A DNA stretch of 64,000 nucleotides from Candidatus Eiseniibacteriota bacterium. GTDB taxonomy: Bacteria; Eisenbacteria; RBG-16-71-46; CAIMUX01. Below the pieces are notes generated by a model that was not told the origin of the DNA, searched no databases, and worked only from the letters and a program-made list of their open reading frames with translations. Positions 1 through 44,762 of this stretch are shown piece by piece. Where the stretch lies: contig CAIMUX010000129.1 in NCBI GenBank assembly GCA_903844735.1, positions 1 through 64,000 on the forward strand, read 5' to 3'. Position 1 is the stretch's first letter. Each line of letters begins with the position of its first letter. Made by a program: the position numbers and the translations under genes.

Positions 1-812
1 CGAGCGGGCGGTTGCGCTTCGTCCCGCTCCCTCCACCCACCACCACCGACGTGGAGGAACTGACCCGGACGGTGGCGGGCCGCCTGACCGAGCGGCTGGC
101 CGCAGCGGCAGAGGAGCAGGGGGACTATCTTGATCCAGACCTGGCCGCACTCATAGAAGCCATCTTCTGGTCACGGGACGCTCCACCGGCCGTGTCCCCG
201 CAGGGGGGGACGCGGGACATCCCGCTACTTCCGGGGCTCGAGGCGTCTGGACGGGAAGAGGATGGCCTGCAGGGCAAGCCACTCTGTGCTTCCGTGGCCG
301 GCTTCTCGCTCCAAGCGGCACAGTGTGTACAAGTGCATGACCGAGAAGCTCTTGAACGTCTGCTGCGCTATGGCTTGCGGGCTCCTTTCTCGCAGGAACG
401 CCTCTCGCGGCGCCCCGACGGAAAGGTTGTCTATCATTTGCGCCGGCCCTGGCCGCATGCCGGCGGGGCCACCGCCATTGTCCTCGAGCCGCTCGACTTT
501 CTCCGGCGTCTGGCGGCGCTGGTGTCGTTTCCGTACGCTCATGGGGTGAGGTAGCATGGTGTATTTGCAAACCGCAGCAAGGTCCGCGGGCTGTTGCCGC
601 CGCCGCCACCGTCGCGACATGCACCGGACTCTCCCGGCGGGGGCCCCTTGGATACCGCAGCCTCTGTGGATGTACAAGAGCTCGGCGACAGCGCGAGCGG
701 ATCCCACGAACCGCCGTCGGGGCCCCGACGGCGGCGATGCTCCTGGGCGCACTTGCTCCTCCGGGTCTTCCATGTAGAAGGTCTCGCATGTCCCAGGTGC
801 ACCACCCAGACC
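1..812 (+). pseudogene. IS91-family transposase remnant, C-terminal half, with in-frame stop
   Basis: The reading frame is open from the left window edge and encodes the distal half of an IS91-type (Y2 rolling-circle) transposase: RFVPLPPPTTTDVEEL, then LLRYGLRAPFSQERLSRR, LEPLDFLRRLAALV and, after a TAG at 552-554, HGVFANRSKVRGLLPP and a CPRC motif near 790-805. The TAG replaces the tyrosine of the family's usual RYHGVxA motif, and the same frame stays open on both sides, so one nonsense change separates the two ORFs. Similarity ends just after CPRC, where a second, inverted transposase piece begins. The protein is dead as it stands. Family assignment rests on several collinear motifs; the right boundary is approximate. 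Confidence 0.75.
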
Positions 813-1562: not shown

Positions 1563-3218
1563 CTACGCCGCCGCCCTCTCCACCGCCTTCTCCGCCGCCT
1601 CCAGCCGAAACTTCCCCAACAGCGCATGCAGAGTCGCCGTTTGCGAGGCCAGCATGTCCGAAGCATCGGATGAGGCTTTCGCCGCGTCGGTGTTCTGCTG
1701 CATCACGCCGGTGATCTTGCCGAGGGAACCGTCCACTGCCTCCATGTCCCGTTGCTGCTCGCCGATGGATGTCGCGATCGTCTCGCTGATACGGGACACC
1801 TCGCTTACCGCGCCGACGATCTCCGCCAACTGCCCCTCGATCTGCCGCGACCGTTCCTCGCCTTCTTCGGCCAGGGCCACGAAGCGGCGCACGACGGTCT
1901 CGGTTCGGTCTCCGGCGTCCTTGGACTGGACGGCCAGCCCGCGCACGTTCGCCGCGGTGCGCTCGAACCCGAGGCCCGCCTCGGCCACATGGGCAGCCTC
2001 TACCGCCGCGTTCAGGGCGAGCATGTTCGTTTCGATGGCCATCTTCTGGATCTCGCGGATGATCTCCGCCATGCCGGCCAGCCGACGCGCGTCGGTGCGC
2101 TCCTGTTTCTCCACACTCGCCTCGCCACCCCGGGCGGCTTCCTCGATCTGCCCGGCGGTCCGCTTGAAACGGCCGGCCAGGGTCCGCACTTCCTGGGCCA
2201 CCACGGCGAAGCTTCGGCCGGCCTCTCCCACCTGGGCGGCCTTGCCGCCCGCGTCCGCGGCCAGCTCGGTGGTCTTCGCCGTGATCTCGTTGATCTCCTG
2301 GATCACGGCGATGGTCGCTTCGGCCGCCGTGCGGATCTCCGCCATGGAGGCGTTCAGACTCTCCGCCGACGCTTTGCCCTGGCCGCTGGACTCTCGTGCC
2401 TTGCCGGCCAGCACGGTGGCCGTCTGCGTGCTCTGCGCGTTCTCGCGTCCGGCCGCTGTGATTTTCTGCAGACTCCCGGCGGTCTCCTGAACCGACTGGG
2501 CCTGGTTGATCGCCCCCTCGGCCATGGTCTGGCTGGTTACCGTGATGCGATCACCCACCGCGGCGACCTGCTCCGTGGCCTGCGCCACTTCCAGGAGAGC
2601 CCGGTGCAGCACCTCGGTGGAGGCATTCAGGGCTTTCTTGATCCGGGCGTGCTCGCCCCGGTATCTCCCGGTCACGCGGGCGCAGAGATCGTAGTCGGCG
2701 AGCTTGTCCAGGACGGCCCTAGGTTCCACCAGCGGATCGGTGACCGCGTCGATAATGTCGTTCACCCCGCGGAACAGGTCAGCCCAGATGCCCTGGAAAT
2801 CCCATTCATTCCCCCGGGTAGTGAGCCTGCCCTCCCCGATGGCGCGCACGACATTGCGTGTCTCCTGCTGCATCCCGTACATGGTGGCGAGGAAGGAGTT
2901 CACGCTCCGCTTGATCCCGTCAAACTCCCCGTGATAGTCGCCGGTGATGAATTCCGGGATCTCCCCGCGGGAGATCTTGTCCAAGGTGCCGGCGGCCAAG
3001 CGCAGCGGGCCCACGAGGGTGTCGAGCAGCGAATTGATCATGGAGACCACTTCCGCTGAGGAGCCTTCGAAGTTCCGGGGATCTCCCCGCTCATCCAGGC
3101 GCCCCTCGGTCACCGCGTTCAGCAGCCTTCTGATCTCGGCGACGGTCTCGTGACTGCACGCGATCTCCGTGGTACTCGGCGTCGGGCCTTTCCGAACGGA
3201 ATTGGGATCTTCTTTCAT
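1563..3218 (-). CDS. Soluble poly-HAMP methyl-accepting chemotaxis protein, last gene of the hydrogenase operon
   Basis: A 551-residue chemoreceptor-type protein with no signal peptide, no transmembrane segment and no recognisable ligand-binding domain. Residues about 25-210 look like consecutive HAMP-type units (LVGPLRLAAGTLDKISRGEI; LVEPRAVLDKLADYDL). The rest is a long coiled-coil signalling domain. It contains two tip-like segments: about 303-360 (IQEINEITAKT ... GRSFAVVAQEVRTLAGR) and about 386-440 (IREIQKMAIETNMLALNAAV ... ANVRGLAVQSKDA). Normally one hairpin tip contacts CheA and CheW. The ATG at 3218 is two bases after the stop of the maturation protease and is preceded by a GGGGG run, so it is translated from the hydrogenase transcript. 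By inference it reads out hydrogenase activity or redox state; no che genes are in the window. Confidence 0.85.
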   Translation of the reverse strand: MKEDPNSVRKGPTPSTTEIACSHETVAEIRRLLNAVTEGRLDERGDPRNFEGSSAEVVSMINSLLDTLVGPLRLAAGTLDKISRGEIPEFITGDYHGEFDGIKRSVNSFLATMYGMQQETRNVVRAIGEGRLTTRGNEWDFQGIWADLFRGVNDIIDAVTDPLVEPRAVLDKLADYDLCARVTGRYRGEHARIKKALNASTEVLHRALLEVAQATEQVAAVGDRITVTSQTMAEGAINQAQSVQETAGSLQKITAAGRENAQSTQTATVLAGKARESSGQGKASAESLNASMAEIRTAAEATIAVIQEINEITAKTTELAADAGGKAAQVGEAGRSFAVVAQEVRTLAGRFKRTAGQIEEAARGGEASVEKQERTDARRLAGMAEIIREIQKMAIETNMLALNAAVEAAHVAEAGLGFERTAANVRGLAVQSKDAGDRTETVVRRFVALAEEGEERSRQIEGQLAEIVGAVSEVSRISETIATSIGEQQRDMEAVDGSLGKITGVMQQNTDAAKASSDASDMLASQTATLHALLGKFRLEAAEKAVERAAA

Positions 3219-3220
3219 AC

Positions 3221-3787
3221 TCACGGTGCCCCCTGTGCCTTTCCGGTGCTCGGTGTCCGTTGTTCGGCCTGTGGCCGGCTGGTCCGTGCCCCGGGGATGT
3301 CTCCGCCGTTCAGTTGACGCAAGCATCGAATGACTTCGTCCGCCGCGGGCCCGATGGCCGCCGCCACCTCCGGCGTAGGCGGCCGGCCGACGAGGTCGAA
3401 GCAGCGGCCTTCGATCCCGACGAGCAGGACGCGGTGCGGCATCGCCTCGGGCGTGAGCCGCTTCCCGACTTCAATCGCCTCCCGCAGCCCGATTCCGTGC
3501 AGGGAAACCGGGGTGGCGTAGACGCACGGCAGGTCGTCCCACGCCAGCACATGGACCGTTCCCACGGGAGCGCCCAGACTCACGGCATCGACGAGCACCA
3601 AGTTCTCCTCGCCGTCCAGGTGATCCAAGACGGAGAGGCCGCCGAGGCCGAGGAGCTCCACCCTGGTACCGGGCGGCAGGACGGAGTCTTGGAGACGCTC
3701 GTAGACGTGGCACCCGGCGGCATCGTCCGCCACCAGGTCGTTGCCCACGCAGAGCACGAGGGACCGCCCCGCGTCGCCCTCGCTCAC
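3221..3787 (-). CDS. [NiFe] hydrogenase maturation endopeptidase (HycI/HyaD family)
   Basis: 188 residues from a GTG that overlaps the stop of the preceding gene (GTGA at 3787-3784). The N-terminus LVLCVGNDLVADDAAG is the family's GxGNxLxxDDGxG-type start, followed by LVLVDAVSLGAPVGTVHV, HGIGLREAIEVG and VLLVGIEGRCFD, with the Asp and His residues that bind nickel in this family. It should remove the C-terminal tail of the hydrogenase large subunit after Ni insertion. The large subunit in this operon keeps such a tail (about 25 residues after DPCLSCATH). The last 30 or so residues are Pro/Arg/Thr-rich and probably disordered. The much longer upstream frame is only the shadow of the neighbouring gene. 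Confidence 0.9.
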   Translation of the reverse strand: MSEGDAGRSLVLCVGNDLVADDAAGCHVYERLQDSVLPPGTRVELLGLGGLSVLDHLDGEENLVLVDAVSLGAPVGTVHVLAWDDLPCVYATPVSLHGIGLREAIEVGKRLTPEAMPHRVLLVGIEGRCFDLVGRPPTPEVAAAIGPAADEVIRCLRQLNGGDIPGARTSRPQAEQRTPSTGKAQGAP

Positions 3788-4338
3788 TTCGTCTCCAGCC
3801 GAATCCGGCAGCTCTCCCCGCAGGAAACGACAGAAGATCGGGTGGGTCGGGCGAGCAACTCGCAGACGACCCCGTCGAGGTAGTTGTGAAAGATCCGGCA
3901 GAGGTCCCCGCCAACCGGTTTGCCGCGAGCCTGGCAGACCTGCCGGATCGCGCAACGGTCGAACCGCACCACCATTTCCCCATCCTCTCCGCGCTCGTGG
4001 GTCATCTCGAAGCCCTTGCTCAGACGGTCGGCGATGGTGTTCAGCACGGTCTCCATGGTGGGTTCCGGGAGATAGTCCGGAAGCTTGCGGGCCATCTGTC
4101 GGCCCGCGCTCCGCCCGACGGAGACTGTAGCCCCGCCCATGATGTCACCCAAGGCGACGGCGAAAGCGTCGAGTAGAAATGAGATCTCCGTGAACGCCCG
4201 CCGATGATCCTCTAACGTCACCGGGACCGCCACGTCCGGGGCGGACATCACGGGCGTTTCCTGCAGCTTGTTGACCAGTTTCACCGGGACCGCGGCGTCC
4301 TGTTCGGACACCACGGGCGCTTCCTGCACTTTGCTCAT
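3784..4338 (-). CDS. V4R-like hydrogenase-associated protein 1
   Basis: 184 residues. After a Pro/Val-rich N-terminus with two similar segments (LQETPVMSAPDVAVPV resembles the stretch before it), the body (about 50-184) looks like a V4R-type small-ligand domain: helices with GGATVSVGRSAGRQMARKL, then RFDRCAIRQVCQARG, GGDLCRIFHNYLDGVV and a Cys-rich end CGESCRIRLE. The protein from 7187-7678 shares the DCxIRQ...G.LC...G..C pattern, so the two are paralogues at opposite ends of the hydrogenase genes. V4R domains of DmpR/PoxR-type regulators bind zinc through conserved cysteines; whether these do is unknown. The start overlaps the ferredoxin stop (ATGA). The function is not established; a sensory or electron-transfer adaptor is an inference. 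Confidence 0.7.
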   Translation of the reverse strand: MSKVQEAPVVSEQDAAVPVKLVNKLQETPVMSAPDVAVPVTLEDHRRAFTEISFLLDAFAVALGDIMGGATVSVGRSAGRQMARKLPDYLPEPTMETVLNTIADRLSKGFEMTHERGEDGEMVVRFDRCAIRQVCQARGKPVGGDLCRIFHNYLDGVVCELLARPTRSSVVSCGESCRIRLETK

Positions 4339-4583
4339 AGGAATTTCTCCATGCGCCCGCAGAACTCGAGGTCGCGGTAGAAGTTCTTCACCCGGGGATA
4401 GTCTTCCTGGTGGATCGCCCCGGAGGGACAGAGGTAGGTGCAGGACAGGCAGGCGATGCAGTCCTCGACTTTCCCCACCTTGGCCAGGCATGCCTCTTCG
4501 TCGAAGGTCAGCACCTTGGTCGGGCAGATCTCGACGCACATCCTGCATCCCCGGCACGCCTGCTCGTGGATCTCCATGCGCAT
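4335..4583 (-). CDS. 2[4Fe-4S] ferredoxin
   Basis: 82 residues with two CxxCxxCxxxC(P) cluster motifs: CRGCRMCVEICP near residue 10 and CIACLSCTYLCP near residue 43. The ATG at 4583 follows the large-subunit stop by two bases and has a GGGAGG ribosome site upstream; the stop overlaps the next start. It is the obvious electron partner of the hydrogenase encoded just upstream. Unlike classical Mvh operons there is no MvhD, HdrABC or diaphorase subunit nearby, so the final electron acceptor is not visible in the window. Confidence 0.92.
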   Translation of the reverse strand: MRMEIHEQACRGCRMCVEICPTKVLTFDEEACLAKVGKVEDCIACLSCTYLCPSGAIHQEDYPRVKNFYRDLEFCGRMEKFL

Positions 4584-4585
4584 GG

Positions 4586-6166
4586 TCAGACCTCCCTTCG
4601 CACGGACCGGACGGGTTGGCCCGCCTGTCGCACGAGCACCTCGAGCGGCATCTGTCCCAGCGCGTGGGTAGCGCAGGACAGGCACGGGTCATAACAGCGG
4701 ATGGCGAACTCGATTGCGTTCAGCAATCCGTCGTCGGCGCGGCCGATCACATGGGACATGGCCGCCTGGGTGATGGACTGGTTGATGCAGGCATAATTCT
4801 GCTGGGTGGCCACGATCAGGTTCGCCGACGTGATGATGCCCCGTTCGTCGATCCGGTAGTCGTGGATAAGAGTCCCCCGCGGGGCCTCCACGTGGGCCAC
4901 GCCGCGCCCTCCGGTGAACCGCACTTCCGCGCGGGTCTCACCGTCGATCCGGGGATCGGCCAGGATCTCTCGCGCCCGCTCGACGGCGTAGATCAGCTCG
5001 ATGATCCGGGCGTAGGCGTGGAGCACCACTTGGTGCGCGGGACGGCCGAAGTCCCGGCGGAACCCGGCCAGGAGCTGATCCGCCACGGGCGTGCCCATCG
5101 AGTCGACGCAATTGATCCGCGCCAGGGCTCCTACCCGGTACAATCGCTCTTCGCCACTGCCCGTCTCACGGTAGTGCACCGGCTTCATGTACGACCAGTC
5201 GAGAACCGACTCCACCAAGTGACGGTCGTAGTCCGCGGCCTGGAACTCGTCCCGGACCGTCCCGACCTCGTCCATCACCCGCAAGGTGCCGTCATAGAGC
5301 GAGGCCTTCCCGTCGTTGACCGTACCCATGTTCCAAGCCGGAACAACCCAGTCGCGGAGAAGTTCGGGATGCGCCTCGACCTGCTGTAGGAGCTTGTCCC
5401 GGGCCACCCCGATGAGCTCCGGGCCGAGTGCCAGGGCCTCTTCCACCCAGTCGGTGAGGATTCGCTTCTTCTCCTCGTCGAGCCGAAAGGCGATGCCGCC
5501 CGCGAGCGACGTGACCGGATGAACACCGCGCCCGCCGACCATCTCGTTGATCTTCTGGCCCAGCGTGCGCAGGCGCAGCGCCTTCTTCGCGACTTCGGGC
5601 GCCGCTTCCACGACGCCAACGACATTGCGAATCGCAGGGTCGGCGTCCAGCCCCAGAATCAGGTCCGGACCCTGCAAGACGAAGAGGGAGAGGGAATGCG
5701 AGTGGATGTAGTGGCCCATATAGAGCAATTCACGCAGGAGCTTGGCCGCGGGAGGGGGAGTTACTCCGGCCGCGGCCTCGATGGCCTTTGAGGCGGCGAG
5801 GTGGTGGGCGGAAGGACAGACGCCGCAGATGCGCGCCGTGATGAGCGGCATCCGGTCCGCCTCCATGCCGACGAGGATGCGCTCGAAACCGCGCAGCTCG
5901 TTCACCACCAGGCCGGCCGAGATGAGGCTCCCATCGTCGGCCAGGTCTAGGAAGACGCGGGCGTGTCCTTCGATGCGTGTGACAGGATCGATGGTCACCG
6001 TTCGGCGTCCCGCCAGCGGTTCCTTCGCGCTCCCTCGCGAGGCAGCGTTCGTGACTTCCACCACCATCGGACCCGCGGTCTTTGTCCTCGACTCCGCTGC
6101 CGGCGGCGCCGACTCTGAGACTTGCCCGGCGATCACAGGCGGGCCGGTCGGATTGGCGTCGGTCAT
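4586..6166 (-). CDS. [NiFe] hydrogenase large subunit, group 3-like (MvhA/HoxH type)
   Basis: 526 residues. It contains TIDPVTRIEGHARVFLDL, the proximal nickel motif RICGVCPSAHH and the distal motif DPCLSCATH near the C-terminus, followed by a roughly 25-residue tail expected to be cleaved by the maturation protease. All four nickel-ligand cysteines are present. The sequence resembles soluble MvhA-type enzymes rather than membrane uptake hydrogenases. The start at 6166 overlaps the small-subunit stop (ATGA); the 40 or so residues before TIDPVTRIEG are low-complexity (Ala, Pro, Thr) and unusual for the family. It catalyses reversible H2 oxidation. In this operon it lacks the usual Hdr or NAD-reducing partners and instead sits with ferredoxin, V4R-like proteins and a chemoreceptor. 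Confidence 0.95.
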   Translation of the reverse strand: MTDANPTGPPVIAGQVSESAPPAAESRTKTAGPMVVEVTNAASRGSAKEPLAGRRTVTIDPVTRIEGHARVFLDLADDGSLISAGLVVNELRGFERILVGMEADRMPLITARICGVCPSAHHLAASKAIEAAAGVTPPPAAKLLRELLYMGHYIHSHSLSLFVLQGPDLILGLDADPAIRNVVGVVEAAPEVAKKALRLRTLGQKINEMVGGRGVHPVTSLAGGIAFRLDEEKKRILTDWVEEALALGPELIGVARDKLLQQVEAHPELLRDWVVPAWNMGTVNDGKASLYDGTLRVMDEVGTVRDEFQAADYDRHLVESVLDWSYMKPVHYRETGSGEERLYRVGALARINCVDSMGTPVADQLLAGFRRDFGRPAHQVVLHAYARIIELIYAVERAREILADPRIDGETRAEVRFTGGRGVAHVEAPRGTLIHDYRIDERGIITSANLIVATQQNYACINQSITQAAMSHVIGRADDGLLNAIEFAIRCYDPCLSCATHALGQMPLEVLVRQAGQPVRSVRREV

Positions 6167-7101
6167 GCCTCCTCCTCTACCTCGGCGATCCATTTCCGAA
6201 TGAGAAAGGTGGGTTTCTCTCCCACCATCTTGCTGGCCATGGCATAGGCGTAGTGGCTCTTGCCCGAGCGCTCCATCGACGCCACGATCTCCTCGCGCGG
6301 AATCGCGGTCAGGCGAGACATCCGGTCGGCCACCTCAGTCCGCAGGTCGCGATTCGGCTCGGTCAGAATCTGCATGGTGGGCCCCGCGCACCCCGTACAC
6401 ATGACTCCCTGGCTCGGGCAGGGAGAAAGGCACCGATCGAGGGTGACCGAACCGAGGCAGACATAGCCCTGGCTGAGCAGACACAGGTCAGGGTCCGGGA
6501 TCCCGTCGTGGTTGCTCTTCAGCCGGGTCTCCTCGGATTTCTTCATGGACCGCGTGCACCGCGCGCAAACCGTCTCCTGCCGGGCTTTGGGTGCGCGGCC
6601 CTCGACCAGGGCCAGCAGAGCGTCGAAGATGAACGCGGCGTGCGGGGGGCAGCCCGGCAGGTACATGTCGACACCGATCACTTCATCGAGGGGGATGACC
6701 TGCTTCTCCAGGAGCGCGACCTGGCTGTGGGGAGCCTCGTTGGTCCGTGTGGTCGGGTTCCTGGTGTACACCGCCTGCAGAATTTCTTCACGCGAGTGGG
6801 CCAGGGCAGCCCCCGGAATGCCACCGTAGATGGCACAGGTCCCCCAGGCGATGACTTTGTCGCAACTGGCCCGCATCTCCTGGGCGACATGGCGGTCATG
6901 CTCGGTCCGGATAGCCCCGGAGACAATGCCGATGTCGGCGTGGGGATAGTCCTTGATGTCGGTGAGGACCGGGCAGTGCTGGATCTGGACCGCCCCGAGG
7001 ATGTCGAGGATCTTCTCGTGCACATCCACGATGGCTACGTGACAGCCTCCGCAGTCGCTCAGCCACTCGAGGTTCAAGCCGATTTTTCGGGCTGCGTTCA
7101 T
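6163..7101 (-). CDS. [NiFe] hydrogenase small subunit, MvhG-like
   Basis: 312 residues, no Tat signal, so cytoplasmic. The proximal-cluster ligands are in LSDCGGCHVAIVD, WGTCAIYGG and LPGCPPH. The C-terminal part has a Cys-rich region (CARC, DLCLLSQGYVC, RCLSPCPSQGVMCTGC) typical of MvhG/HoxY-type subunits with further Fe-S clusters. It transfers electrons from the NiFe site of the large subunit. The ATG at 7101 is followed directly by the conserved N-terminus, and the gene is separated by 85 bases from the V4R-like gene upstream, the only real gap in the operon. Confidence 0.95.
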   Translation of the reverse strand: MNAARKIGLNLEWLSDCGGCHVAIVDVHEKILDILGAVQIQHCPVLTDIKDYPHADIGIVSGAIRTEHDRHVAQEMRASCDKVIAWGTCAIYGGIPGAALAHSREEILQAVYTRNPTTRTNEAPHSQVALLEKQVIPLDEVIGVDMYLPGCPPHAAFIFDALLALVEGRAPKARQETVCARCTRSMKKSEETRLKSNHDGIPDPDLCLLSQGYVCLGSVTLDRCLSPCPSQGVMCTGCAGPTMQILTEPNRDLRTEVADRMSRLTAIPREEIVASMERSGKSHYAYAMASKMVGEKPTFLIRKWIAEVEEEA

Positions 7102-7186
7102 GGACCACTCCTTCGCGTTTGATCCCCCTCACATCCCCATCACATCCCACTCCGCCCCGCCCGGATCTGCGACCGAACGCCCCGGC

Positions 7187-7678
7187 TCAGCGGTGAATCA
7201 GAAGCCGCTTCAGGCAGGCGTTTTCACCGGCGTGAAGCACTTCCAGGCTGGACTTGCGCCCCATGATCGTCTCCACCGCACCGGCGAAGAATCCAAACAT
7301 CATGTTGCACAACGATCCCTTCTGGTGGTGCCCGTAGAGGAAAAGGGCCTGGCGGATCATGCAGTCGCGAAAGACCAACAGGATCTCCTCGCCCTCCTCG
7401 GTCGAACGGACTAAGGACTCACGATCGCTGGGCTGGAACGTCTCGAACTGCCAGAGACACTGGTTCTCGGCCAGCACCGCGCGGACCACGGCCAAGGCTT
7501 CCTCGAGGTCGTCGGTGCGCTTCGCCTGCTGCGCGAAGCGCTTTCCCAAATCCTTCCCGGCCACATAGGTGATGCTGCCGGCCGACTCCCCGACGGCATC
7601 CTCGATGCCGCTGGAGATCGCTCCGAGAAAGCTCATCGTCTCTTGCAGGGTTGCGCGTTCTTCGGTCAGCGTGTCCAT
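7187..7678 (-). CDS. V4R-like hydrogenase-associated protein 2, first gene of the operon
   Basis: 163 residues, soluble. It resembles the V4R-like protein at 3784-4338: helical N-terminal half (SFLGAISSGIEDAVGESAG, YVAGKDLGKRFAQQAKR), then FRDCMIRQALFLYG, KGSLCNMMFGFFAGAVE and AGENACLKRLL. The conserved Cys and AGENAC pattern suggests a bound metal, cluster or small ligand. It is the first gene of the operon. I do not recognise a named orthologue. A sensor, redox adaptor or assembly factor for the hydrogenase are all possible. Confidence 0.65.
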   Translation of the reverse strand: MDTLTEERATLQETMSFLGAISSGIEDAVGESAGSITYVAGKDLGKRFAQQAKRTDDLEEALAVVRAVLAENQCLWQFETFQPSDRESLVRSTEEGEEILLVFRDCMIRQALFLYGHHQKGSLCNMMFGFFAGAVETIMGRKSSLEVLHAGENACLKRLLIHR

Positions 7679-8028: not shown

Positions 8029-9129
8029 ATGAGATTCCACCGGTTTGGTCTGGCGCTGATCACGGTCCTCGCCCTGACCGGCAAGTGCGGCCCGGCGTCT
8101 GCCGCCACGTCAACCGACAATGGTGCGCCCGCGATCCGCGTGACCGACGCCGCCGGTCGCACGGTGGAGCTGGCCCGGCCGGCGCAGCGCATCGTCGTGG
8201 TGGGAAACGGCCCCTACATAGCGCTCGACATGCTCTACATGTTTCCCGGCGTGTCACGACAGCTTGTCGGCATGGAAAAAAAGGGCTCGTTGGCCAGCGA
8301 TTTTCTGCCGCTCCTGGACCCGACGTTCGCAGACAAGCCCGCGTTGGTCAGTCCCGGCCCCGAACAGATCGCGGTGCTGCACCCCGACTTGGTGCTCACG
8401 CGGGGCCAAGGGCTCGACCGGATCGGAGTCACTCTGGATGCGATTCACGTCCCGATGGTCTATCTGGGCATGGAAACGCCTGAGCAGTTCTACCGCGACG
8501 TCGCGAACCTGGGAGTCCTGTTGGGTCGGCCGGAGAGGGCGCAGGAGATCACGGCCTACTACCAATCACGCATCGCGCGCATCCGTGCCGGTTGGCAGGG
8601 CGTGCCCGAGGCCGAGCGGCCGCGCGTGTTGGTTGTCGAGTACACGGAGCGCGGCGGGGCCGCAGCCGTGCGTGTGCCGGCGAAGCCCTGGATGCAGACG
8701 CTGGAGGTCGAGACCGCGGGCGGGCGACCGGTCTGGCTCGACTCGGCCGCCCCGACCAGCGGCTGGACCGTGACGAACATCGAGCAGATCGCGCGCTGGG
8801 ATCCCGACAGGATCATCCTCGTCGTTGCGCGTGCGCACGATCCGGAGAAAGCGGTCGCCGCGCTCAAGATCGATCCGCAATGGCGCGGGTTGCGCGCGGT
8901 ACGCCAGGATGCGCTGTGCGCGTTCCCGTTCGATCTGTATGGCTGGGACACGCCTGATCCTCGCTGGCTGTTGGGCATGACCTGGATGGCGAAGACGCTC
9001 CATCCGGACAGCTTCAAGAGCTTGGACCTAGACGCTGAGGTGCACAGCTTTTTCGGTACGCTCTACGGAATGGACGAGAGCGCCATCGACAAAAGCATTG
9101 TGAGCAAGATGTGGCTGGGCGTCCGCTGA
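8029..9129 (+). CDS. Periplasmic substrate-binding protein of a FecCD-type ABC importer
   Basis: 366 residues. Residues 1-26 form a signal peptide (LALITVLALTGKCG ... ASA). The rest is a class III (BtuF/FhuD-like) binding fold: RVTDAAGRTVELARPAQRIV, PEQIAVLHPDLVLTRG, VPMVYLGMETPEQFYRDV. The ATG at 8029 gives the signal peptide directly; the longer upstream frame is not supported. The family carries ferric siderophores, haem, cobalamin or, in a few cases, nickel or molybdate chelates. Because the transporter lies between a hydrogenase operon and the hyp genes, nickel or an iron chelate is the likeliest cargo, but this is inference from context. Confidence 0.88.
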   Translation: MRFHRFGLALITVLALTGKCGPASAATSTDNGAPAIRVTDAAGRTVELARPAQRIVVVGNGPYIALDMLYMFPGVSRQLVGMEKKGSLASDFLPLLDPTFADKPALVSPGPEQIAVLHPDLVLTRGQGLDRIGVTLDAIHVPMVYLGMETPEQFYRDVANLGVLLGRPERAQEITAYYQSRIARIRAGWQGVPEAERPRVLVVEYTERGGAAAVRVPAKPWMQTLEVETAGGRPVWLDSAAPTSGWTVTNIEQIARWDPDRIILVVARAHDPEKAVAALKIDPQWRGLRAVRQDALCAFPFDLYGWDTPDPRWLLGMTWMAKTLHPDSFKSLDLDAEVHSFFGTLYGMDESAIDKSIVSKMWLGVR

Positions 9130-9145
9130 GGCGCGGCTGCGGACG

Positions 9146-10165
9146 GTGATGAGCGCCGAGCGTCGAGGCTGCGATGAGCGCCGGGCGTCGAGGCGGCTGT
9201 GGGCGATCGCAGGCCTGCTGTTCGTGTGTGCGCTGGTATCGGCGGCGCTCGGCCGCTACCCGGGACCGTTCCTGACCCCCCCCGCGGCGCTCTTCCACGA
9301 CGAGCTGGCGCGCAATCTGATCCTCAACCTGCGCGTGCCGCGCATCCTCGCCGCGTTGTTGCTGGGCGCGACGCTCGGTGGTTCGGGCGCGGTGCTGCAG
9401 ATGGTCTTTCGTAACCCGCTGGTCGACTCGGGCTTCCTTGGCGTCTCGCCCGGCGCGGCGTTCGGCGCATCTCTTGCCATCGTGTTCTTGGGAGGAGCGC
9501 CGGCCGCGGTACAGGGCTCGGCCGCCGCGTTCGCGCTGCTCGGCATGGCGGCGAGTTATCTGATCGCACAGCGGATCCGCTTCGGCGACTGGGTGCTGCG
9601 GCTGGTGCTCGCAGGCATCATCGTCTCGGCCACCCTCTCGTCGGCGACCGGGGCGCTGAAGTACCTGGCCGATCCCTTGAAGCAACTCCCCGACATCACA
9701 TTTTGGATGCTGGGCGGACTCTGGGCGATCACTTGGCGCGACGTTCTGCACATCGCGCCGGTGGTGCTGCCCTGTTTGGTCGTGCTCCACCTGATGCGCT
9801 GGCGCCTAAACGTGCTCTCGCTGCGCGACGAAACCGCGTTTTCCCTGGGCGTAGCGCCGGGCCGCGAGCGGTTGGTCATCGTGGTCGTGGCCGTGGCCGC
9901 CACTGCGGCGGTCGTGTCGAAGGCCGGGCAGATCGGCTGGGTGGGTCTGATCGTGCCGCACATCGCGCGACGCTTGGTCGGCTCGGACGCGCGGCGCGCC
10001 CTGCCGGCGAGCATGCTGCTCGGCACGATCTTCGTGCTGGCCTGTGACGACGTCGCGCGCACGCTGCTCAATGGCGAGATCCCTCTGGGGCTGCTGACAT
10101 CGTTCGTGGGTGCGCTGTTCTTCCTGGGCGTGGTGTTGCGCCGGCAGGCGGCGGTGCGGTCGTGA
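9146..10165 (+). CDS. FecCD-family ABC transporter permease
   Basis: 339 residues with about nine to ten hydrophobic segments. Family signatures include RVPRILAALLLGATLGGSGA, MVFRNPLVDSGFLGVSPGAA, SKAGQIGWVGLIVPHIARRL and PLGLLTSFVGALFF, the last two forming the ATPase-coupling helix and the conserved C-terminus. It forms the membrane channel for the importer whose binding protein ends 16 bases upstream and whose ATPase start overlaps its stop codon. Only one permease gene is present, so the functional unit should be a homodimer. ATG at 9146 or 9149 are both possible starts. Confidence 0.93.
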   Translation: MMSAERRGCDERRASRRLWAIAGLLFVCALVSAALGRYPGPFLTPPAALFHDELARNLILNLRVPRILAALLLGATLGGSGAVLQMVFRNPLVDSGFLGVSPGAAFGASLAIVFLGGAPAAVQGSAAAFALLGMAASYLIAQRIRFGDWVLRLVLAGIIVSATLSSATGALKYLADPLKQLPDITFWMLGGLWAITWRDVLHIAPVVLPCLVVLHLMRWRLNVLSLRDETAFSLGVAPGRERLVIVVVAVAATAAVVSKAGQIGWVGLIVPHIARRLVGSDARRALPASMLLGTIFVLACDDVARTLLNGEIPLGLLTSFVGALFFLGVVLRRQAAVRS

Positions 10166-11055: not shown

Positions 11056-11314
11056 AGGATACGGGGCGGAGACGCGCGGTGCGGGGGTGGTGAGATGCTG
11101 GTGACTGGCGGAAGTGTCGGAGAAGCGACGCCGGTGCTGCGCCAGCCCACCGCGAACATGGGGCCGACGAGCACGTTCACGCAATCGTGTGGGTGTGCGG
11201 GACCGACAGGGAATCAACGGCCCGCGCGACGCATCCCGATCACCGCATGCACCTTGCCGGCCGCCGCAGGCAATTGGGCGTCGCGCCGAGTGAGGGCGAC
11301 CGGCCGTGTCTCCG

Positions 11315-11331
11315 CCAGAGCTTCGCTCTGG
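11315..11331 (+). terminator. Candidate terminator hairpin after the transporter operon
   Basis: CCAGAGC, loop TTC, GCTCTGG: a perfect 7-bp stem followed by GGTTCTCG. The T-run is weak, so the call is tentative. It lies about 260 bases after the last transporter gene. Confidence 0.35.
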
Positions 11332-11505
11332 TTCTCGTGAGAAACGGATGAAGGCTCATGCCGGCACGGTAGATCGATGGTGTCCTTCTGTTAAGGATAC
11401 ATTCCTGGAAACCTGGGTCCAGCGTGGGGCCACACCATGGCTGTCGCCTGCGAACGGCCCCGCCTGCCGAGCCAAGGCCTCGCAGCCGGAACACGCGCGG
11501 ATTCC

Positions 11506-11534
11506 TTGTCTTCACCCGGACATGCTGCTAGATT
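11506..11534 (+). promoter_or_regulatory. Candidate sigma70 promoter of the hyp operon
   Basis: TTGTCT (4/6 to the -35 consensus) and TAGATT (4/6 to the -10) with a 17-base spacer. It would start transcription near 11541, about 48 bases before hypA. Confidence 0.4.
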
Positions 11535-11588
11535 CCATTGGGCATCCGATCGAGACTCGGCTTCCTGACAGGTCAGCGGAGAGGCAGC

Positions 11589-11933
11589 ATGCACGAACTG
11601 GCCGTGGCAGCGAATCTTCTCGACGTAGTCCTGAAGACCGCCCGGGAAAACGGTGCAACGACGGTCGTTACGGCCCGCATCCGCATCGGTGCGGGAAGTT
11701 GCCTGAATCCCGACTCGCTGGCGTTCGGTTTCGAGGCCCTTGCCGCCGGAACTCCGGCCTCGGGCTGCCGGCTCGAGATCGAACATCTGCCCGCCCCGGT
11801 GACGTGCCCGGCCTGCGGCTGGGAGGGCGAGCGGCTGGATGTGGCCGAACTGGTCTGCCCGCAATGCGAGGGGCACCCGCTGCGCATCACGGGGGGGCGC
11901 GAGCTGACGGTGGACACAATCACCGTGGAGTAA
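11589..11933 (+). CDS. hypA: Hydrogenase nickel-insertion protein HypA
   Basis: 114 residues. It begins MHELAVAANLLDVVLKTA; the His at position 2 and the following Glu are the nickel-binding residues of the family. The zinc site is CPACGWEGERL ... CPQCEGHPLRI, two CxxC pairs. It delivers Ni2+ to the hydrogenase large subunit together with HypB. The ATG at 11589 follows a GAGAGGC ribosome site; the longer upstream frame would destroy the essential free MH N-terminus. hypB starts 2 bases after its stop. Confidence 0.96.
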   Translation: MHELAVAANLLDVVLKTARENGATTVVTARIRIGAGSCLNPDSLAFGFEALAAGTPASGCRLEIEHLPAPVTCPACGWEGERLDVAELVCPQCEGHPLRITGGRELTVDTITVE

Positions 11934-11935
11934 AC

Positions 11936-12766
11936 ATGCACGATTTCAGTGTCAACAAGCGCCTCTGGGACCAGACCGACGAGCTGGGCCTGGCCAACCG
12001 TCGGCGGCTCGAAGAAGCCCGGATCTACTGCATCAACGTCATGAGCGCCCCGGGGGCCGGAAAGACGACGCTCCTGGAGCGGACGCTGGAACGCATCGCC
12101 CCCGGCCCGCGGTTCGGCGTCATCGAGGGGGATATCCAGGGACGAGCCGACGCGGACCGACTCGAGCGGTTTGGGATCCCCGTGCGGCAGATCAACACCA
12201 ACGGCGCCTGCCACCTCGACCCGCGCCAGGTGGCCGCGGCCTTGGACACCATGGATCTCGGCTCGATCGATCTGCTCGTTATCGAGAACGTGGGAAACCT
12301 TGTCTGCCCCGCCGAGTTCGACCTGGGCGAAGCCGATCGAGTGATGCTTCTCTCGGTGACCGAGGGACATGACAAGCCCGCGAAGTATCCGCTCATGTTT
12401 CGCACCGCGGACGTTCTCATCCTGAACAAGATCGATCTCCTTCCCCACACCGATTTCGATCTCGCCGAAGCATCACGGGTAGCGCGCGTCCTGCGCGAGG
12501 GGATCGAAATCCTGGAGGTGAGCTGTCGCACCGGGGAGGGGCTCGATGGGTGGATCGCCTGGCTGGAGCACCGTCTGGCGCACGCGAAGGAGCACTGGGA
12601 CGGCATGCCGCACGACCACGCACCCGGCCAGAGCCATAACCACGACCACGGCCCGGACCATAGCCACGGTCCGAGCCACCGGCACGACCCGGGTCCCAGC
12701 CACGACGCGAGCCCCGGCCGTGCCCCGAACCACCGTCCCACGGGCGGCCCGGCGTCCGGAGCCTGA
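11936..12766 (+). CDS. hypB: Hydrogenase nickel-insertion GTPase HypB with C-terminal His-rich tail
   Basis: 276 residues. The GTPase core has the P-loop SAPGAGKTT, VIEGDIQGRADADRL, NTNGACHLDP with the metal-site Cys and His, IENVGNLVCPAEFDLGE and the guanine-specificity motif LNKID. Residues about 222-276 form a tail rich in His, Pro, Asp and Ser, organised in HDH, HGPDHSHGP-type repeats, likely to store or buffer nickel. In most HypB proteins with such a region it precedes the GTPase domain; here the N-terminus is short and lacks it. Functions with HypA in Ni insertion. Confidence 0.95.
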   Translation: MHDFSVNKRLWDQTDELGLANRRRLEEARIYCINVMSAPGAGKTTLLERTLERIAPGPRFGVIEGDIQGRADADRLERFGIPVRQINTNGACHLDPRQVAAALDTMDLGSIDLLVIENVGNLVCPAEFDLGEADRVMLLSVTEGHDKPAKYPLMFRTADVLILNKIDLLPHTDFDLAEASRVARVLREGIEILEVSCRTGEGLDGWIAWLEHRLAHAKEHWDGMPHDHAPGQSHNHDHGPDHSHGPSHRHDPGPSHDASPGRAPNHRPTGGPASGA

Positions 12767-12770
12767 CGCG

Positions 12771-13019
12771 ATGTGTCTGGCCATACCGATGCGGATCATC
12801 GAGGTCGACGGAACCCGGGGCCTCGTCGAATCCTCCGGCGTGCGCTACGAGATCCGCCTCGACCTCGTGGGCGATGTCCGGATCGACGAGTTCGTGTTGG
12901 TCCACGCCGGTTACGCCATCCAGGTCATGGACGAAGAGGCGGCCGCGGAACAGCTCGCCCTCCTCGAACACCTGCTCAGTGAAGAGGCGGGAGATTCCTT
13001 GCCGGATCCGGGAGCCTGA
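12771..13019 (+). CDS. hypC: Hydrogenase assembly chaperone HypC
   Basis: 82 residues beginning MCLAIPMRIIEVDG; the Cys after the initiator Met is the essential Fe(CN)2CO-binding residue of HypC/HybG proteins. GDVRIDEFVLVHAGYAIQVM is the conserved beta-barrel core ending in the AIxxMDEEEA motif. HypC carries the iron fragment between HypD and the large-subunit precursor. The start 4 bases after the hypB stop shows tight coupling. Confidence 0.95.
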   Translation: MCLAIPMRIIEVDGTRGLVESSGVRYEIRLDLVGDVRIDEFVLVHAGYAIQVMDEEAAAEQLALLEHLLSEEAGDSLPDPGA

Positions 13020-13026
13020 GTCGGAC

Positions 13027-14166
13027 ATGCCAGTCCCCGACGAAATCTTTCGCGACCCGGTGCGCTTAGCCAAGTTCGCGGATCGGCTGCTGCGCCACGG
13101 CTCCACCCGAGCCCTAGTCTTCATGCATGTCTGTGGCACGCACGAGCACGCGATCGCCCGGGCCGGGCTGCGGTCCCTTCTCCCGGACTCGTTGCGCATC
13201 ATCGCCGGGCCGGGTTGCCCGGTCTGTGTTTGCCCGCCGGAGGAGATTGACCTCGCGGCGCGCCTCGCCCTGGAAGCGGGAGTGGTCGTCGCCACGTTCG
13301 GTGACATGCTGCGAGTCCCCGGACGCATCTCCCTTGCTGAGGCCCGCTCGCGCGGCGGCGACATCCGCGTGGTGGCGAGCGCGGCGGCCGCGGTGGAGAT
13401 CGCTCGCCACGAGCCCGGCCGCGAGGTGGTTCTCTTCGCGGTCGGGTTCGAGACCACCGCGTGTACAACCGCGGCCGCGCTGTTGGCGCATCCTCCGGAC
13501 AACTTCAGTATCCTTTCCGCGCACCGGCTCATTCCACCGGCCCTCGAGGCGCTGGCCGGGATGGAAGGTCTGGCCCTCGACGGCTTCCTGCTTCCCGGGC
13601 ATGTCCTCGCGGTAACCGGACCCGAACCCTACGACCGGTTTGTCCGTCTCACCGGCCGTCCCTGCGCTGTCGCCGGGTTCGAGCCGGTCGACATCCTGCT
13701 CGGATTGGAAAGCCTCGTGCGCATGGCGAACGCGGGCGAGGCCGGGCTCGTCAACGCCTACCCGCGCGCCGTGCGGCCGGGAGGCAATAGCCGCGCCGTG
13801 GAGGCGATGGCCCGGGCGTTCACCGTGGGAGACGCCCGATGGCGCGGACTCGGCACGATCCCAGGCACCGGCTTGGACGTCCACCCCGAGCGGCAGCGTC
13901 ACGATGCCCGCCACCGCTTCGCCCTCGCCGGAGAGACGATTGCGGTGCCGGATGACGCTCCGGGGTGTCTGTGCAGCCGCGTCATGATCGGACTCGCGGA
14001 GCCGGAGGATTGCTCGCTCTTCGGCACCGTCTGCACGCCGGAGACGCCGCACGGGCCTTGTATGGTTTCGGCGGAAGGGACCTGTCGGAGTCGCCACCTC
14101 TATCCGGCCGCCGGGTCGGTCGGAGGAACGAGGACCGTGACGGATCGGGAGGGCGGTGCGTCGTGA
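13027..14166 (+). CDS. hypD: Fe-(CN)2CO scaffold protein HypD
   Basis: 379 residues. Conserved motifs are FMHVCGTHEHAIARAGLRSL, AGPGCPVCVCP, FAVGFETTACTTAA, LLPGHVLAVTG and the C-terminal Fe-S region CLCSRVMIGLAEPEDCSLFG ... CTPETPHGPCMVSAEGTC. HypD holds a [4Fe-4S] cluster and, with HypC, is the platform on which cyanide ligands from HypE/HypF are attached to iron. The gene follows hypC by 7 bases and its stop overlaps the hypE GTG start. The roughly 20 residues after the last Cys motif are divergent. Confidence 0.96.
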   Translation: MPVPDEIFRDPVRLAKFADRLLRHGSTRALVFMHVCGTHEHAIARAGLRSLLPDSLRIIAGPGCPVCVCPPEEIDLAARLALEAGVVVATFGDMLRVPGRISLAEARSRGGDIRVVASAAAAVEIARHEPGREVVLFAVGFETTACTTAAALLAHPPDNFSILSAHRLIPPALEALAGMEGLALDGFLLPGHVLAVTGPEPYDRFVRLTGRPCAVAGFEPVDILLGLESLVRMANAGEAGLVNAYPRAVRPGGNSRAVEAMARAFTVGDARWRGLGTIPGTGLDVHPERQRHDARHRFALAGETIAVPDDAPGCLCSRVMIGLAEPEDCSLFGTVCTPETPHGPCMVSAEGTCRSRHLYPAAGSVGGTRTVTDREGGAS

Positions 14167-15275
14167 CCGATGACGATCGCCGCATCACGCTTGGCCACGG
14201 CGCCGGTGGACGCCTGACCCTCGATCTGGTCCAGGGGCTCTTCGCTCCGCTTCTGGCCAATCGATTCCTGGAGCCGCTCGGCGACGCGGCCGTGTGTCCC
14301 GATCCGAATGGCCGCATCGCGCTCACGACCGATTCCTTCGTCGTCCAGCCGCTCTTCTTTGCTGGCGGGGACATCGGGTCCCTGGCGATCAACGGGACGG
14401 TGAACGACCTGGCGGTGGCAGGAGCTCGGCCGCTGTACCTCACGCTCGGGGTGATTCTCGAAGAAGGCCTTCCGCTGGCCGACCTTGAGCGTGTGATCGC
14501 ATCGATCGCCGATGCAGCGACGCGGGCCGGCGTGCAAGTGGTGGCCGGCGACACCAAGGTCGTGGAGCGCGGTAAGGGGGATGGGATCTTCCTCAACACC
14601 GCGGGTGTCGGCGTCGTGCGGTCCGGTTATCCCCGCACCGATCGCGGACCCGCTTCCGGCGATGCCATTCTCGTGAGTGGTCCCATGGGCGATCACGGGG
14701 CGGTGATTCTCGCGGCACGCCATGGGCTTATCCCCGGCCCCGGCCTGGCCAGCGATTGTGCGCCGGTCACGTCGCTGGTCGATGCCCTCTTCGCGGCTGG
14801 GATCGCACCCTTGTTCATGCGCGACCCGACCCGCGGCGGTTTGGCCGGGGTTCTGGCCGATCTAGCCGAAATTCCGGGAAGCGGCGTGCGAGTGGAGGAG
14901 GCCGCGGTGCCGATCCGTCCCGCGGTGGAAACGGTCTGCGCCATCACCGGCGTCGACCCGTGGCACTTAGCCTGCGAGGGTCGTGTCGTGGCTGTGGTCG
15001 CCGCGGAGGATGCCGAGCGGGCCATCGCGGCTTGGCGCGCCATCCCGGGGGGTGAGGCCGCGGCGCGCATCGGCAGCATCACCGCCGGCTCCCGCGGGCG
15101 AGTCGATGCCGGATCCAGTGGGCGCAGCGACGCCGAATCCAATGGGCGCGCCGACGCCGACATCAGCGGGCGCCGCGGCGCCGAGTCCCCGGGACGCGTC
15201 GTTCTCGTGACCCGCTACGGTGGCGCGCGCCTGCTCCTGCGACCTTCCGCCGAGCTGCTGCCGCGGATCTGCTGA
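14163..15275 (+). CDS. hypE: Carbamoyl dehydratase HypE
   Basis: 370 residues, GTG start overlapping the hypD stop (GTGA). The N-terminal ATP-binding half has GHGAGGRLTLDLVQGLF, TTDSFVVQPLFFAGGDIG, INGTVNDLAVAGA and GDTKVVERGKGDG. The protein ends in PRIC, whose terminal cysteine is carbamoylated by HypF and dehydrated to thiocyanate to make the CN ligands. Near the C-terminus about 32 residues of an 8-residue repeat (consensus xSxGRxDA, 15087-15182) are inserted between the core and the conserved final strand; this is not normal for HypE, though the essential C-terminus is preserved. Confidence 0.95.
   Translation: MTDDDRRITLGHGAGGRLTLDLVQGLFAPLLANRFLEPLGDAAVCPDPNGRIALTTDSFVVQPLFFAGGDIGSLAINGTVNDLAVAGARPLYLTLGVILEEGLPLADLERVIASIADAATRAGVQVVAGDTKVVERGKGDGIFLNTAGVGVVRSGYPRTDRGPASGDAILVSGPMGDHGAVILAARHGLIPGPGLASDCAPVTSLVDALFAAGIAPLFMRDPTRGGLAGVLADLAEIPGSGVRVEEAAVPIRPAVETVCAITGVDPWHLACEGRVVAVVAAEDAERAIAAWRAIPGGEAAARIGSITAGSRGRVDAGSSGRSDAESNGRADADISGRRGAESPGRVVLVTRYGGARLLLRPSAELLPRIC
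15087..15182 (+). repeat. In-frame 24-bp tandem repeat, four units, in hypE
   Basis: Four 24-base units encode GSRGRVDA, GSSGRSDA, ESNGRADA and DISGRRGA; a fifth partial unit (ESPGRV) follows. The units are diverged but in register and disturb only a surface-type segment before the last beta strand. Confidence 0.85.
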
Positions 15276-15284
15276 GGCGCCATC

Positions 15285-17771
15285 TTGTCCGCTGACGACA
15301 ACCCGTCCGGCAACCCGCCCGCGGCTCCGATCCGCCGCCGGATTACGGTGCGCGGGCTTGTGCAAGGCGTCGGCTTCCGCCCGTTTGTACACCGCCTGGC
15401 GGAGCGGCACGGCATCACCGGGTGGGTGCAGAACGGTCCGGACGGCGTCACCATCGAGGCTGAGGGAACCCCTGATGGCGTCGCGGCCTTTCACGCGGAC
15501 ATTCCCCGCCTCGCCCCTGAGCTTGCCGTCATCACCGGCTTGGCAGAGAGTGCCCTCCCTCCCATGGGAGACGAGGGTTTTCGGGTCATCCCCTCGGCGC
15601 CCGAGGGCGAACTGACCACCCTTCCTCCGCCCGACCTGGCCACCTGCGCGGCCTGCCTCCACGAACTCGGCGACCCGGCCGACCGGCGCCATCACTATCC
15701 GTTCCTCAACTGCACAGACTGCGGCCCGCGCTACACCATCCTGGAGAGCCTTCCGTACGACCGAGTTCGCACCGGCATGCGGGGTTTCACCCTCTGCCCC
15801 GACTGCCGCGCCGAGTACGAGGAGATCCGCGATCGGCGCTACCATGCCGAGCCGATCGCTTGCCCTGCGTGCGGGCCGCGCGTCTGGCTCGTGGACCCGG
15901 CCGGGCACGCCATCAGCGCGAAGGACCCGATCGCGGAGGCGGTCCGGAGGCTGGCTGCGGGGGAGATCGTGGCCGTGAAAGGACTCGGCGGGTTCCACCT
16001 GGCCTGCTCAGCCCTGGACACCGCGGCGGTGGCGCGTCTGCGCGCGCGCAAGGGAAGGCCGGACAAGCCGCTCGCAGTCATGGCCCGCGACCTAGCCGTG
16101 ATCATTTCATTCGCCCGAGTCTCCGAGGAGGAGGAAGAGCTGCTGCTTGGGTGGCGCAGACCGATCGTGCTGTTGGACCAAAGGTCGGGTGACCGGGAAC
16201 CGACCGGTGCCGGCGTGTCTCCCGTCGAACCCACCGACGAAAGTCGAAGCGTGAGCGGTGACATGGCTGGAAGTAGGGAAAGCAAAGCGGGATGTCAGCC
16301 ACCATGCCGCATCGTTTCCTCGGTGAGCGGTTCGTCGCACAAGATCGGCGTCATGCTCCCTTACACACCGCTCCACCACCTTCTACTCGCCGGATCCTGT
16401 ACCGCGCTTGTGATGACCAGCGGGAACCGCACGGACGAGCCGATTGCCCGTGACAACGAAGAGGCTCTGGCCAGCCTCGGGGGCATCGCGGACTGCTTCC
16501 TGCTGCACGACCGGCCGATCCGCAACCGCGCCGACGACTCTGTGGTGCGAATGGCGGGGAGACGGCAGGTTCTACTGCGCCGCAGCCGCGGGTTCGTGCC
16601 ACAGCCGGTGCCGTTGCCCATGTCACGACCCGGGCCGATGCCGGCTGTCGCTCGCAAAGCCGCACCCTGTGTCATCGCCGTCGGTGGGGACCTCAAGGGA
16701 GCATGCTGTCTGATCGTGCGGGGTGAGGCGTTTCCCGGTCCGCATGTCGGTGACCTTGCACACCCGGCAGCCGCGGCCTTTCTGGTGGAATCGATGGAAA
16801 CGCTCCTGCGGCTGCTCGGCGCCCGTCCCGAGGTTGTGGTCCACGATCTCCATCCCGACTATGTCGGCACCGCCATTGCGACGGAGTTCGCCGCGCGGCG
16901 CGGCCTGCGTCGGCTCGCCGTGCAGCATCACCACGCCCACGGCCTCGCCTGCCTTGCGGAGAACGGCTGGGTCGAGCCCGCCATCGTGGTTGCTCTGGAT
17001 GGGACCGGGTACGGACCCGACGGCACGATCTGGGGAGGCGAGATCCTCGTCGTGGACGGTCCCCGCTTTGTCCGAGCCGCTTGTCTGAGCCCCCGGCCGC
17101 TACCTGGCGGAGACAGGGCTGCCCTTGAACCGTGGCGGATGGCATTGAGCGTGCTCCACGAGGATGCTCACGGCGGCGGGCCGCCGTGCGGCGGGCACTC
17201 GTTCCTGCAAGGCATAGACGCAGAGCTCATCGCTGGCGTGCACAGGCTCCTGTTGTCCCCCGATTGTCCCCGCACCAGCAGCGCTGGACGGCTCTTTGAC
17301 GCCGCGGCAGCGATCTTGGGCCTGCGTCGTGTCGCCAGTTTTGACGGGCAGGCGGCGATGGAACTGGAGGAGCTAGCCGCTCAGAGCCGGGACCCAGCGG
17401 CCTACCCGTTCACCGTCGGACGGGGGTCCTCTTCGGAATCTCCCGCATACATCGACCTCGGCCCGGCAGTGCGAGCCCTGTCGACCGACACGCGGGTGGC
17501 GAGCGCGGACCGCGCCCGCCGCTTTCACAACACCCTCGTCGCGGCCATGGCTGAGGCTTGCTCTCGGGTGCGCCACGAAACGTCCATCGAGACGGTGGCC
17601 CTGAGCGGCGGGGTCTTGCAGAACGCAATCGTGCTCGACGGGCTGGTGGTTGCACTCGAGGCGCTGGGATGTCGCGTGCTCACCCACAGACGTGTGCCGC
17701 CGAACGACGGGGGGCTGGCGCTGGGGCAGGCTTGGTACGGCTACTCGTCGTCCCTCAAGGTTCCGTCCTGA
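15285..17771 (+). CDS. hypF: Carbamoyltransferase HypF
   Basis: 828 residues, probably from TTG at 15285 (no ATG lies before the first domain; a GTG at 15348 would cut into it). Order: acylphosphatase domain (VRGLVQGVGFRPFVHRL), two zinc-finger pairs (CAACLHEL, CTDCGPRYTI, CPDCRAEY, CPACGPR), a YrdC-like adenylation domain (ARKGRPDKPLAVM, IGVMLPYTPLHHLLL, VMTSGNRTDEPIA) and a C-terminal Kae1-like domain (VQHHHAHGLACLAENGW, ALDGTGYGPDGTIWGGE, ALSGGVLQNA). It converts carbamoyl phosphate to the HypE thiocarboxamide. The stretch between RPIVLLD and IGVMLPYT is about 35-40 residues longer than usual and Ser/Gly-rich. Confidence 0.95.
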   Translation: MSADDNPSGNPPAAPIRRRITVRGLVQGVGFRPFVHRLAERHGITGWVQNGPDGVTIEAEGTPDGVAAFHADIPRLAPELAVITGLAESALPPMGDEGFRVIPSAPEGELTTLPPPDLATCAACLHELGDPADRRHHYPFLNCTDCGPRYTILESLPYDRVRTGMRGFTLCPDCRAEYEEIRDRRYHAEPIACPACGPRVWLVDPAGHAISAKDPIAEAVRRLAAGEIVAVKGLGGFHLACSALDTAAVARLRARKGRPDKPLAVMARDLAVIISFARVSEEEEELLLGWRRPIVLLDQRSGDREPTGAGVSPVEPTDESRSVSGDMAGSRESKAGCQPPCRIVSSVSGSSHKIGVMLPYTPLHHLLLAGSCTALVMTSGNRTDEPIARDNEEALASLGGIADCFLLHDRPIRNRADDSVVRMAGRRQVLLRRSRGFVPQPVPLPMSRPGPMPAVARKAAPCVIAVGGDLKGACCLIVRGEAFPGPHVGDLAHPAAAAFLVESMETLLRLLGARPEVVVHDLHPDYVGTAIATEFAARRGLRRLAVQHHHAHGLACLAENGWVEPAIVVALDGTGYGPDGTIWGGEILVVDGPRFVRAACLSPRPLPGGDRAALEPWRMALSVLHEDAHGGGPPCGGHSFLQGIDAELIAGVHRLLLSPDCPRTSSAGRLFDAAAAILGLRRVASFDGQAAMELEELAAQSRDPAAYPFTVGRGSSSESPAYIDLGPAVRALSTDTRVASADRARRFHNTLVAAMAEACSRVRHETSIETVALSGGVLQNAIVLDGLVVALEALGCRVLTHRRVPPNDGGLALGQAWYGYSSSLKVPS

Positions 17772-43232: not shown

Positions 43233-43549
43233 CATGGAACGACCCTGCCAAGGGGTCACGGAGGCCGCTTCCCAGGGTGGGGGGCTGCCTTCGCCGCTGA
43301 CGTCGTGGATCGGAGGGGACCGAGAAGTCCGAGCGCTTCGAAGGCGGGTCACGCCGACGGCTGTTCACGACACTTGGCGAAACCTCCGGGCGCATACGAC
43401 TCTGATGGCATAGAAGCCGAGCGGTTGTAGAGGCCGTTTGGCGACTCGATAGATTCCCCAGGCATCGACCCGGCCGCAAAGCGGATGCCCGAAGCCTGAA
43501 GTCTCCCCCGCCCCAGGGCTCGCCTTTATCTGGTAGTGTGGGGGCAATC
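43233..43549. other. Intergenic region before the histidine kinase
   Basis: 317 bases, no gene recognised. Minus-strand frames of about 60-110 codons here look random. The kinase ribosome site (GTGGGGG) is at its right end; no clear promoter was identified. Confidence 0.35.
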
Positions 43550-44725: not shown

Positions 44726-44762
44726 ACGAGAGCCACCCCCCGGCGACCCGCGGAGGAGAACC

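Follow-up and report, generated by a model that had tools for sequence, protein, structure and literature searches.

A block of seven intact genes in a Candidatus Eiseniibacteriota genome is best read as an MvhAG-type [NiFe] hydrogenase which provides the input to a chemosensory pathway and reports the H2 or redox state; we hold this reading with moderate confidence. The block lies at 7678-1563 in the stretch of 64,000 nucleotides analysed here (the window), where the genes are arranged head to tail on the minus strand in the order V4R1, HydS, HydL, ferredoxin, V4R2, maturation protease and MCP. Comparison with other genomes showed this order in 32 of 32 complete loci, mostly from Geobacterales. 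A signalling role of the block is well supported by these sequence comparisons.

The first gene, V4R1 (7187..7678), is separated from HydS by +85 bases and the following junctions measure -4, +2, -4, -4 and +2 bases. The tight coupling described in a sequence-only reading of the window (seven genes, six coupled by overlaps or gaps of at most 2 bases) was thus confirmed. Pfam domains (NiFeSe_Hases, Oxidored_q6, Fer4, HycI protease, two HAMP_2 and MCPsignal) together with the motifs agreed with the gene identities proposed there, i.e., small and large [NiFe] subunits, ferredoxin, protease and chemoreceptor. The large subunit HydL (4586..6166) carries both Ni-ligand motifs of the active site, RICGVC and DPCLSCATH, and ends in a cleavable tail of 25 residues past the processing His. 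In NCBIfam and the PDB, HydL is nearest to VhuA/MvhA and the small subunit HydS (6163..7101) to VhuG/MvhG, the closest PDB relatives being MvhA and MvhG, respectively. The alignment of HydS with MvhG reaches through the C-terminal cluster region, and HydS contains the cysteines for three [4Fe-4S] clusters. The 2[4Fe-4S] ferredoxin (4335..4583) has 82 residues with two complete CxxCxxCxxxCP motifs, and the protease (3221..3787) is a hydrogenase maturation protease of the HycI/HupD type. Beside the block and divergent from it, the maturation genes hypA, hypB, hypC, hypD, hypE and hypF (11306..17771, plus strand) and a BtuFCD-like ABC transporter were found. The latter, an importer located between the block and hypA-F (8200-11055, plus strand), possibly takes up nickel or corrinoid for the hydrogenase.

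Both subunits are homologous to MvhA/MvhG with complete cluster ligands, as in group 3c (Mvh), and are closest to MvhAGD/Vhu; the block holds ferredoxin and V4R proteins in place of MvhD and Hdr. Neither MvhD nor HdrABC was present in the conserved block, and the absence of MvhD, Hdr and diaphorase genes noted from the sequence alone holds within it. HydL is not a group 2 large subunit as in regulatory group 2b, its best relatives being MvhA, VhuA and HoxH-type proteins. The histidine kinase partner of group 2b is missing from the window locus and present in a sister clade (L083 and L114, see below). The catalytic subunit is [NiFe], and no [FeFe] catalytic domain of the group C2 kind was found.

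V4R1 and V4R2 (3784..4338) are paralogues and share three invariant cysteines in the alignment (Cys106, Cys124 and Cys155 in V4R1). Their scores for the Pfam family V4R (PF02830) were below the gathering score, with best e-values of 0.02-0.05 and 14 bits versus 31 for V4R1 of the window; a V4R profile search of PDB sequences gave no match. The label "V4R-like" used in the sequence-only reading was nevertheless upheld by structure prediction. In Foldseek, the AF2 model of V4R1 (pTM 0.75) was best matched by the V4R domains with which MopR, PoxR and DmpR sense phenol, and according to this model V4R1 has a V4R fold, as in known sensor domains.

The terminal gene, MCP (1563..3218), encodes a receptor of the MvhV family. 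An MCPsignal domain above the curated cut-off and HAMP input were found, in line with the soluble poly-HAMP receptor proposed earlier. The HAMP array (2601..3155, minus strand, residues ~22-206) comprises two Pfam HAMP_2 stretches, in which four HAMP-like units are seen by eye. The sequence-only reading did not mention that the signalling tip is duplicated. A Tsr fragment matches the MCP twice (residues 238-357 versus 4-123 and 383-540 versus 68-225), hence the hairpin tip is present twice. In tip copy 1 (2148..2303, minus strand, residues 306-357) the N-half is degenerate and the C-half conserved, and in tip copy 2 (1905..2057, minus strand, residues 388-438) the N-half is conserved and the C-half degenerate; the position of Tsr R388 in copy 2 is an invariant His410. 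Thus, instead of one canonical hairpin tip with residues for CheA/CheW contact, the MCP has duplicated tips with complementary half-degeneration. The duplication is common to all members of the family, which rules out decay of the MCP gene. The four tip halves scored -1, 18, 20 and 8 with a tip profile, compared to 65/54 for ordinary receptors, a gap that is exaggerated because the same seven ordinary tips built the profile and served as the yardstick. Decay is strongest in the outer halves. The inner halves are kept and have the lowest entropy (0.84 and 0.70 bits), followed by the arms (1.4) and the linker (1.88, highest). This linker (2067..2147, minus strand, residues 358-384) varies in sequence and length, is rich in glycine in some members and contains a predicted new hairpin turn.

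The AF2 model of the MCP, a single run of the monomer with 16 sequences, predicted two helices without a break, spanning 187-367 and 375-535, and placed the turn at 368-374. The tip centres, 332 and 414, are 82 residues apart with their midpoint at 373. The model suggests an inverted tip, in which the C-half of copy 1 and the N-half of copy 2 pack together like those of an ordinary tip but are joined at the opposite end; in the simplest reading, the hairpin would be lengthened by about 40 residues per arm. Possibly, the tip consists of four helices with two real turns instead, which would retain the same inner pairing. The nearest receptor with two signalling-tip sequences is DosM of F9 arrays, likewise a soluble MCP (PMC7534058, PMC9321776). 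DosM, however, is rod-shaped with a signalling domain at each end, whereas the tips described here are half-degenerate and predicted to form a single hairpin; the 82-residue spacing and the continuous helices argue against a DosM-like two-ended rod. No other part of the block is as unusual as the receptor tip, or as little proven.

The gene order is by no means restricted to the window, and the identical order in the 32 complete loci from other genomes excludes a chance arrangement. The incomplete loci end at contig ends. Among 141 Geobacterales genomes, the MCP family and the HydL clade were each found in 33, once per genome, and both together in 32. The two exceptions are an MCP fragment in G627 and a sister-clade hydrogenase in G614. 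The former (L082, 6768-7839, from a MAG) is a double-truncated MvhV-type receptor without hydrogenase genes and 98% identical to the complete copy in G615, so it was rejected as a case of a receptor without hydrogenase. Apart from this fragment, the MCP does not occur alone in relatives. In a set of 14 genomes, other MCPs above E 1e-60 were absent from 12, and in the remainder they matched over the HAMP part only. For the seven proteins, the correlations between pairwise distances lie at 0.90-0.97 and partly reflect the shared ancestry of linked genes.

HydL of the window shares 61-67% identity with the Geobacterales clade, but only 38-42% with any hydrogenase found elsewhere in its phylum (47 genomes searched in all). 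This difference suggests horizontal transfer. A plasmid search found relatives below 60% only. At the contig edge beside the module, a fragment of a Y2-type transposase (12-554, plus strand) was observed, which fits either mobility or an assembly that broke off at an insertion sequence. Genes for a histidine kinase carrying the segment LHDI..RLYYLPI, for a sigma-54 response regulator and for an RND pump lie 40 kb away in the window (43538-46181 and 50032-53280, plus strand); in Geobacter loci, e.g., L036 (14129-16621 and 185-3322) and L051, the module is flanked by kinase, regulator and pump genes that look similar.

Further links to signalling were found in the relatives. Immediately ahead of V4R1, 17 of the 32 complete loci have a dedicated cheW, which bears indirectly on the control of CheA; none was found there in the remaining 15 loci or in the window, where neither cheW nor any other che gene stands beside the block. 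A single open frame covers both protease and MCP in L039 and L084; the two frames are 43% identical to each other. The L039 frame has no good internal start ahead of the HAMP region, an internal ATG ahead of the MCP is possible in L084, and a sequencing indel in either MAG is a possible source of the single frame. The same core recurs in a sister clade of the hydrogenase (HydL 49%), where ferredoxin and V4R2 are joined as a fusion (Fd::V4R2). In L083, a histidine kinase and an RR-DUF4388-Roadblock protein precede V4R1-HydS-HydL-Fd::V4R2, and in L114 the same core is divergent from RR-DUF4388, Roadblock and PAS-kinase genes. The core of hydrogenase, V4R and ferredoxin is therefore joined to two different signalling outputs, which is the strongest argument that this core is the sensor; the fusion suggests where the electrons go.

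In the host genome (5.4 Mb, 96% complete), several matches to CheW and to MCPs were found. It has at least two genes for CheA, of which one lies near a type II/IV secretion ATPase gene. A cluster of the host (L089, 3061-15625) encodes a T2SSE/MshEN ATPase, a CheA of 1063 AA with two CheW stretches and a receiver, and two receptors, one with a 4HB sensor and the other also matching the MCP tip. The second [NiFe] hydrogenase of the host (L088, 8870-14086, contig C79) has a large subunit of 39% identity, is Hox-like and has a large ferredoxin-like partner. FliG and FlhA were not found in the genome, so swimming H2-taxis is unlikely in this host. The earlier proposal of H2 signalling to CheA therefore stands in part: the conserved order, one receptor per genome, cheW in 17/32 loci, the single frames and the sister clade with histidine kinase and response regulator (HK/RR) support the signalling role, and flagellar H2-taxis was discarded for the host.

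From these data we infer the electron route, the V4R relay, the MCP contact, the control of CheA and the sign of the response. The cytoplasmic, catalytically competent hydrogenase would split H2 at the NiFe site of HydL, and electrons would reach the small ferredoxin by way of the three FeS clusters in HydS. Reduced ferredoxin may alter the state of the cysteine-bearing V4R2, possibly together with V4R1. The soluble MCP would be bound at its HAMP array or stalk by either the V4R proteins or the hydrogenase, and would pass the state on to CheW/CheA. In the non-flagellated host, the output would be other than swimming, e.g., type IV pili, development or gene control.

A point against this reading is that the ferredoxin partner fits ordinary H2 metabolism as well. 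HydSL might simply trade electrons with the ferredoxin, acting as H2 sink or source, with V4R proteins assisting assembly and the MCP as a linked passenger. The complete catalytic motifs, ferredoxin and protease as well as the adjoining hyp genes agree with such a metabolic enzyme, and the Mvh hydrogenase of G. sulfurreducens is thought of as H2-producing (PMC7894505). A passenger, however, is hard to reconcile with an MCP kept in 32/32 loci and unique to them, with the 17 loci joined by cheW, with the HK/RR coupling of the sister clade and with the modelled sensor fold of V4R1, and we judge this explanation unlikely. Somewhat less likely still is a scaffold, i.e., a degenerate, rod-like MCP which holds the hydrogenase in clusters or in position and has ceased to control CheA. 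CheA control may indeed be lost, as both tip copies are far from ordinary tips; DosM, regarded as an array scaffold (PMC9321776), is a precedent, and the protease-MCP single frames would suit a scaffold, too. The strong conservation of the inner half-tips relative to the arms and the dedicated cheW argue against it. MCPs usually signal towards CheA. This usual direction and the HK/RR-wired sister clade, which resembles input-to-kinase systems such as HoxBC-HoxJ (PMC6978683), make it improbable that the chemosensory array governs hydrogenase activity or electron flow instead, a reverse flow that predicts the same co-occurrence data.

Sensory hydrogenases are already known as a kind of system. 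HydDB contains kinase-linked and cyclase-linked [NiFe] groups and a putative chemotactic [FeFe] group C2, and lists no [NiFe] hydrogenase linked to an MCP (PMC5037454). In the regulatory [NiFe] hydrogenases 2b (HoxBC-HoxJ) and 2c, a cytoplasmic [NiFe] hydrogenase likewise feeds a signalling protein, but their output is a kinase or cyclase, whereas the block belongs to an MvhA-like large-subunit clade with added ferredoxin and V4R proteins and an MCP/CheW output. For group C2, H2 sensing via MCPs has likewise been proposed, with an unrelated enzyme ([FeFe]) (PMC5037454). The Mvh cluster of G. sulfurreducens (GSU2416-2423, small and large subunits GSU2418/2419, PMC4667449) includes an MCP named MvhV, which is among the proteins detected in proteome studies (PMC7894505, PMC8691401). 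With its eight genes, this named cluster likewise combines an MCP with a hydrogenase of the same kind and, judged by annotation, is very likely the same module; the window copy differs in its distant lineage and in having no linked cheW. A sensing role for Mvh/MvhV was not found in the papers examined, where the module is an annotation only. The tie of hydrogenase and MCP, regarded as unusual in the sequence-only reading, is less new than supposed, because MvhV was already annotated (PMC7894505, PMC8691401) and C2 is included in HydDB (PMC5037454). Newly described are the tip duplication in every member of the receptor family, the conserved inner halves and the turn predicted by AF2 between the copies. 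Tentatively, the block might represent a third kind of [NiFe] H2 sensor, of group-3 type, with a dedicated MCP/CheW reached through a ferredoxin-V4R relay and an inverted receptor tip in which the CheW/CheA-contact segment is reversed.

The long-unassigned Mvh hydrogenase cluster of Geobacter is thereby given a testable function. If the sensory reading is true, a chemosensory kinase pathway would join the known outputs of [NiFe] H2 sensors, and the rearranged tip would offer a natural way to test which tip parts, and in which orientation, are needed for the control of CheA.
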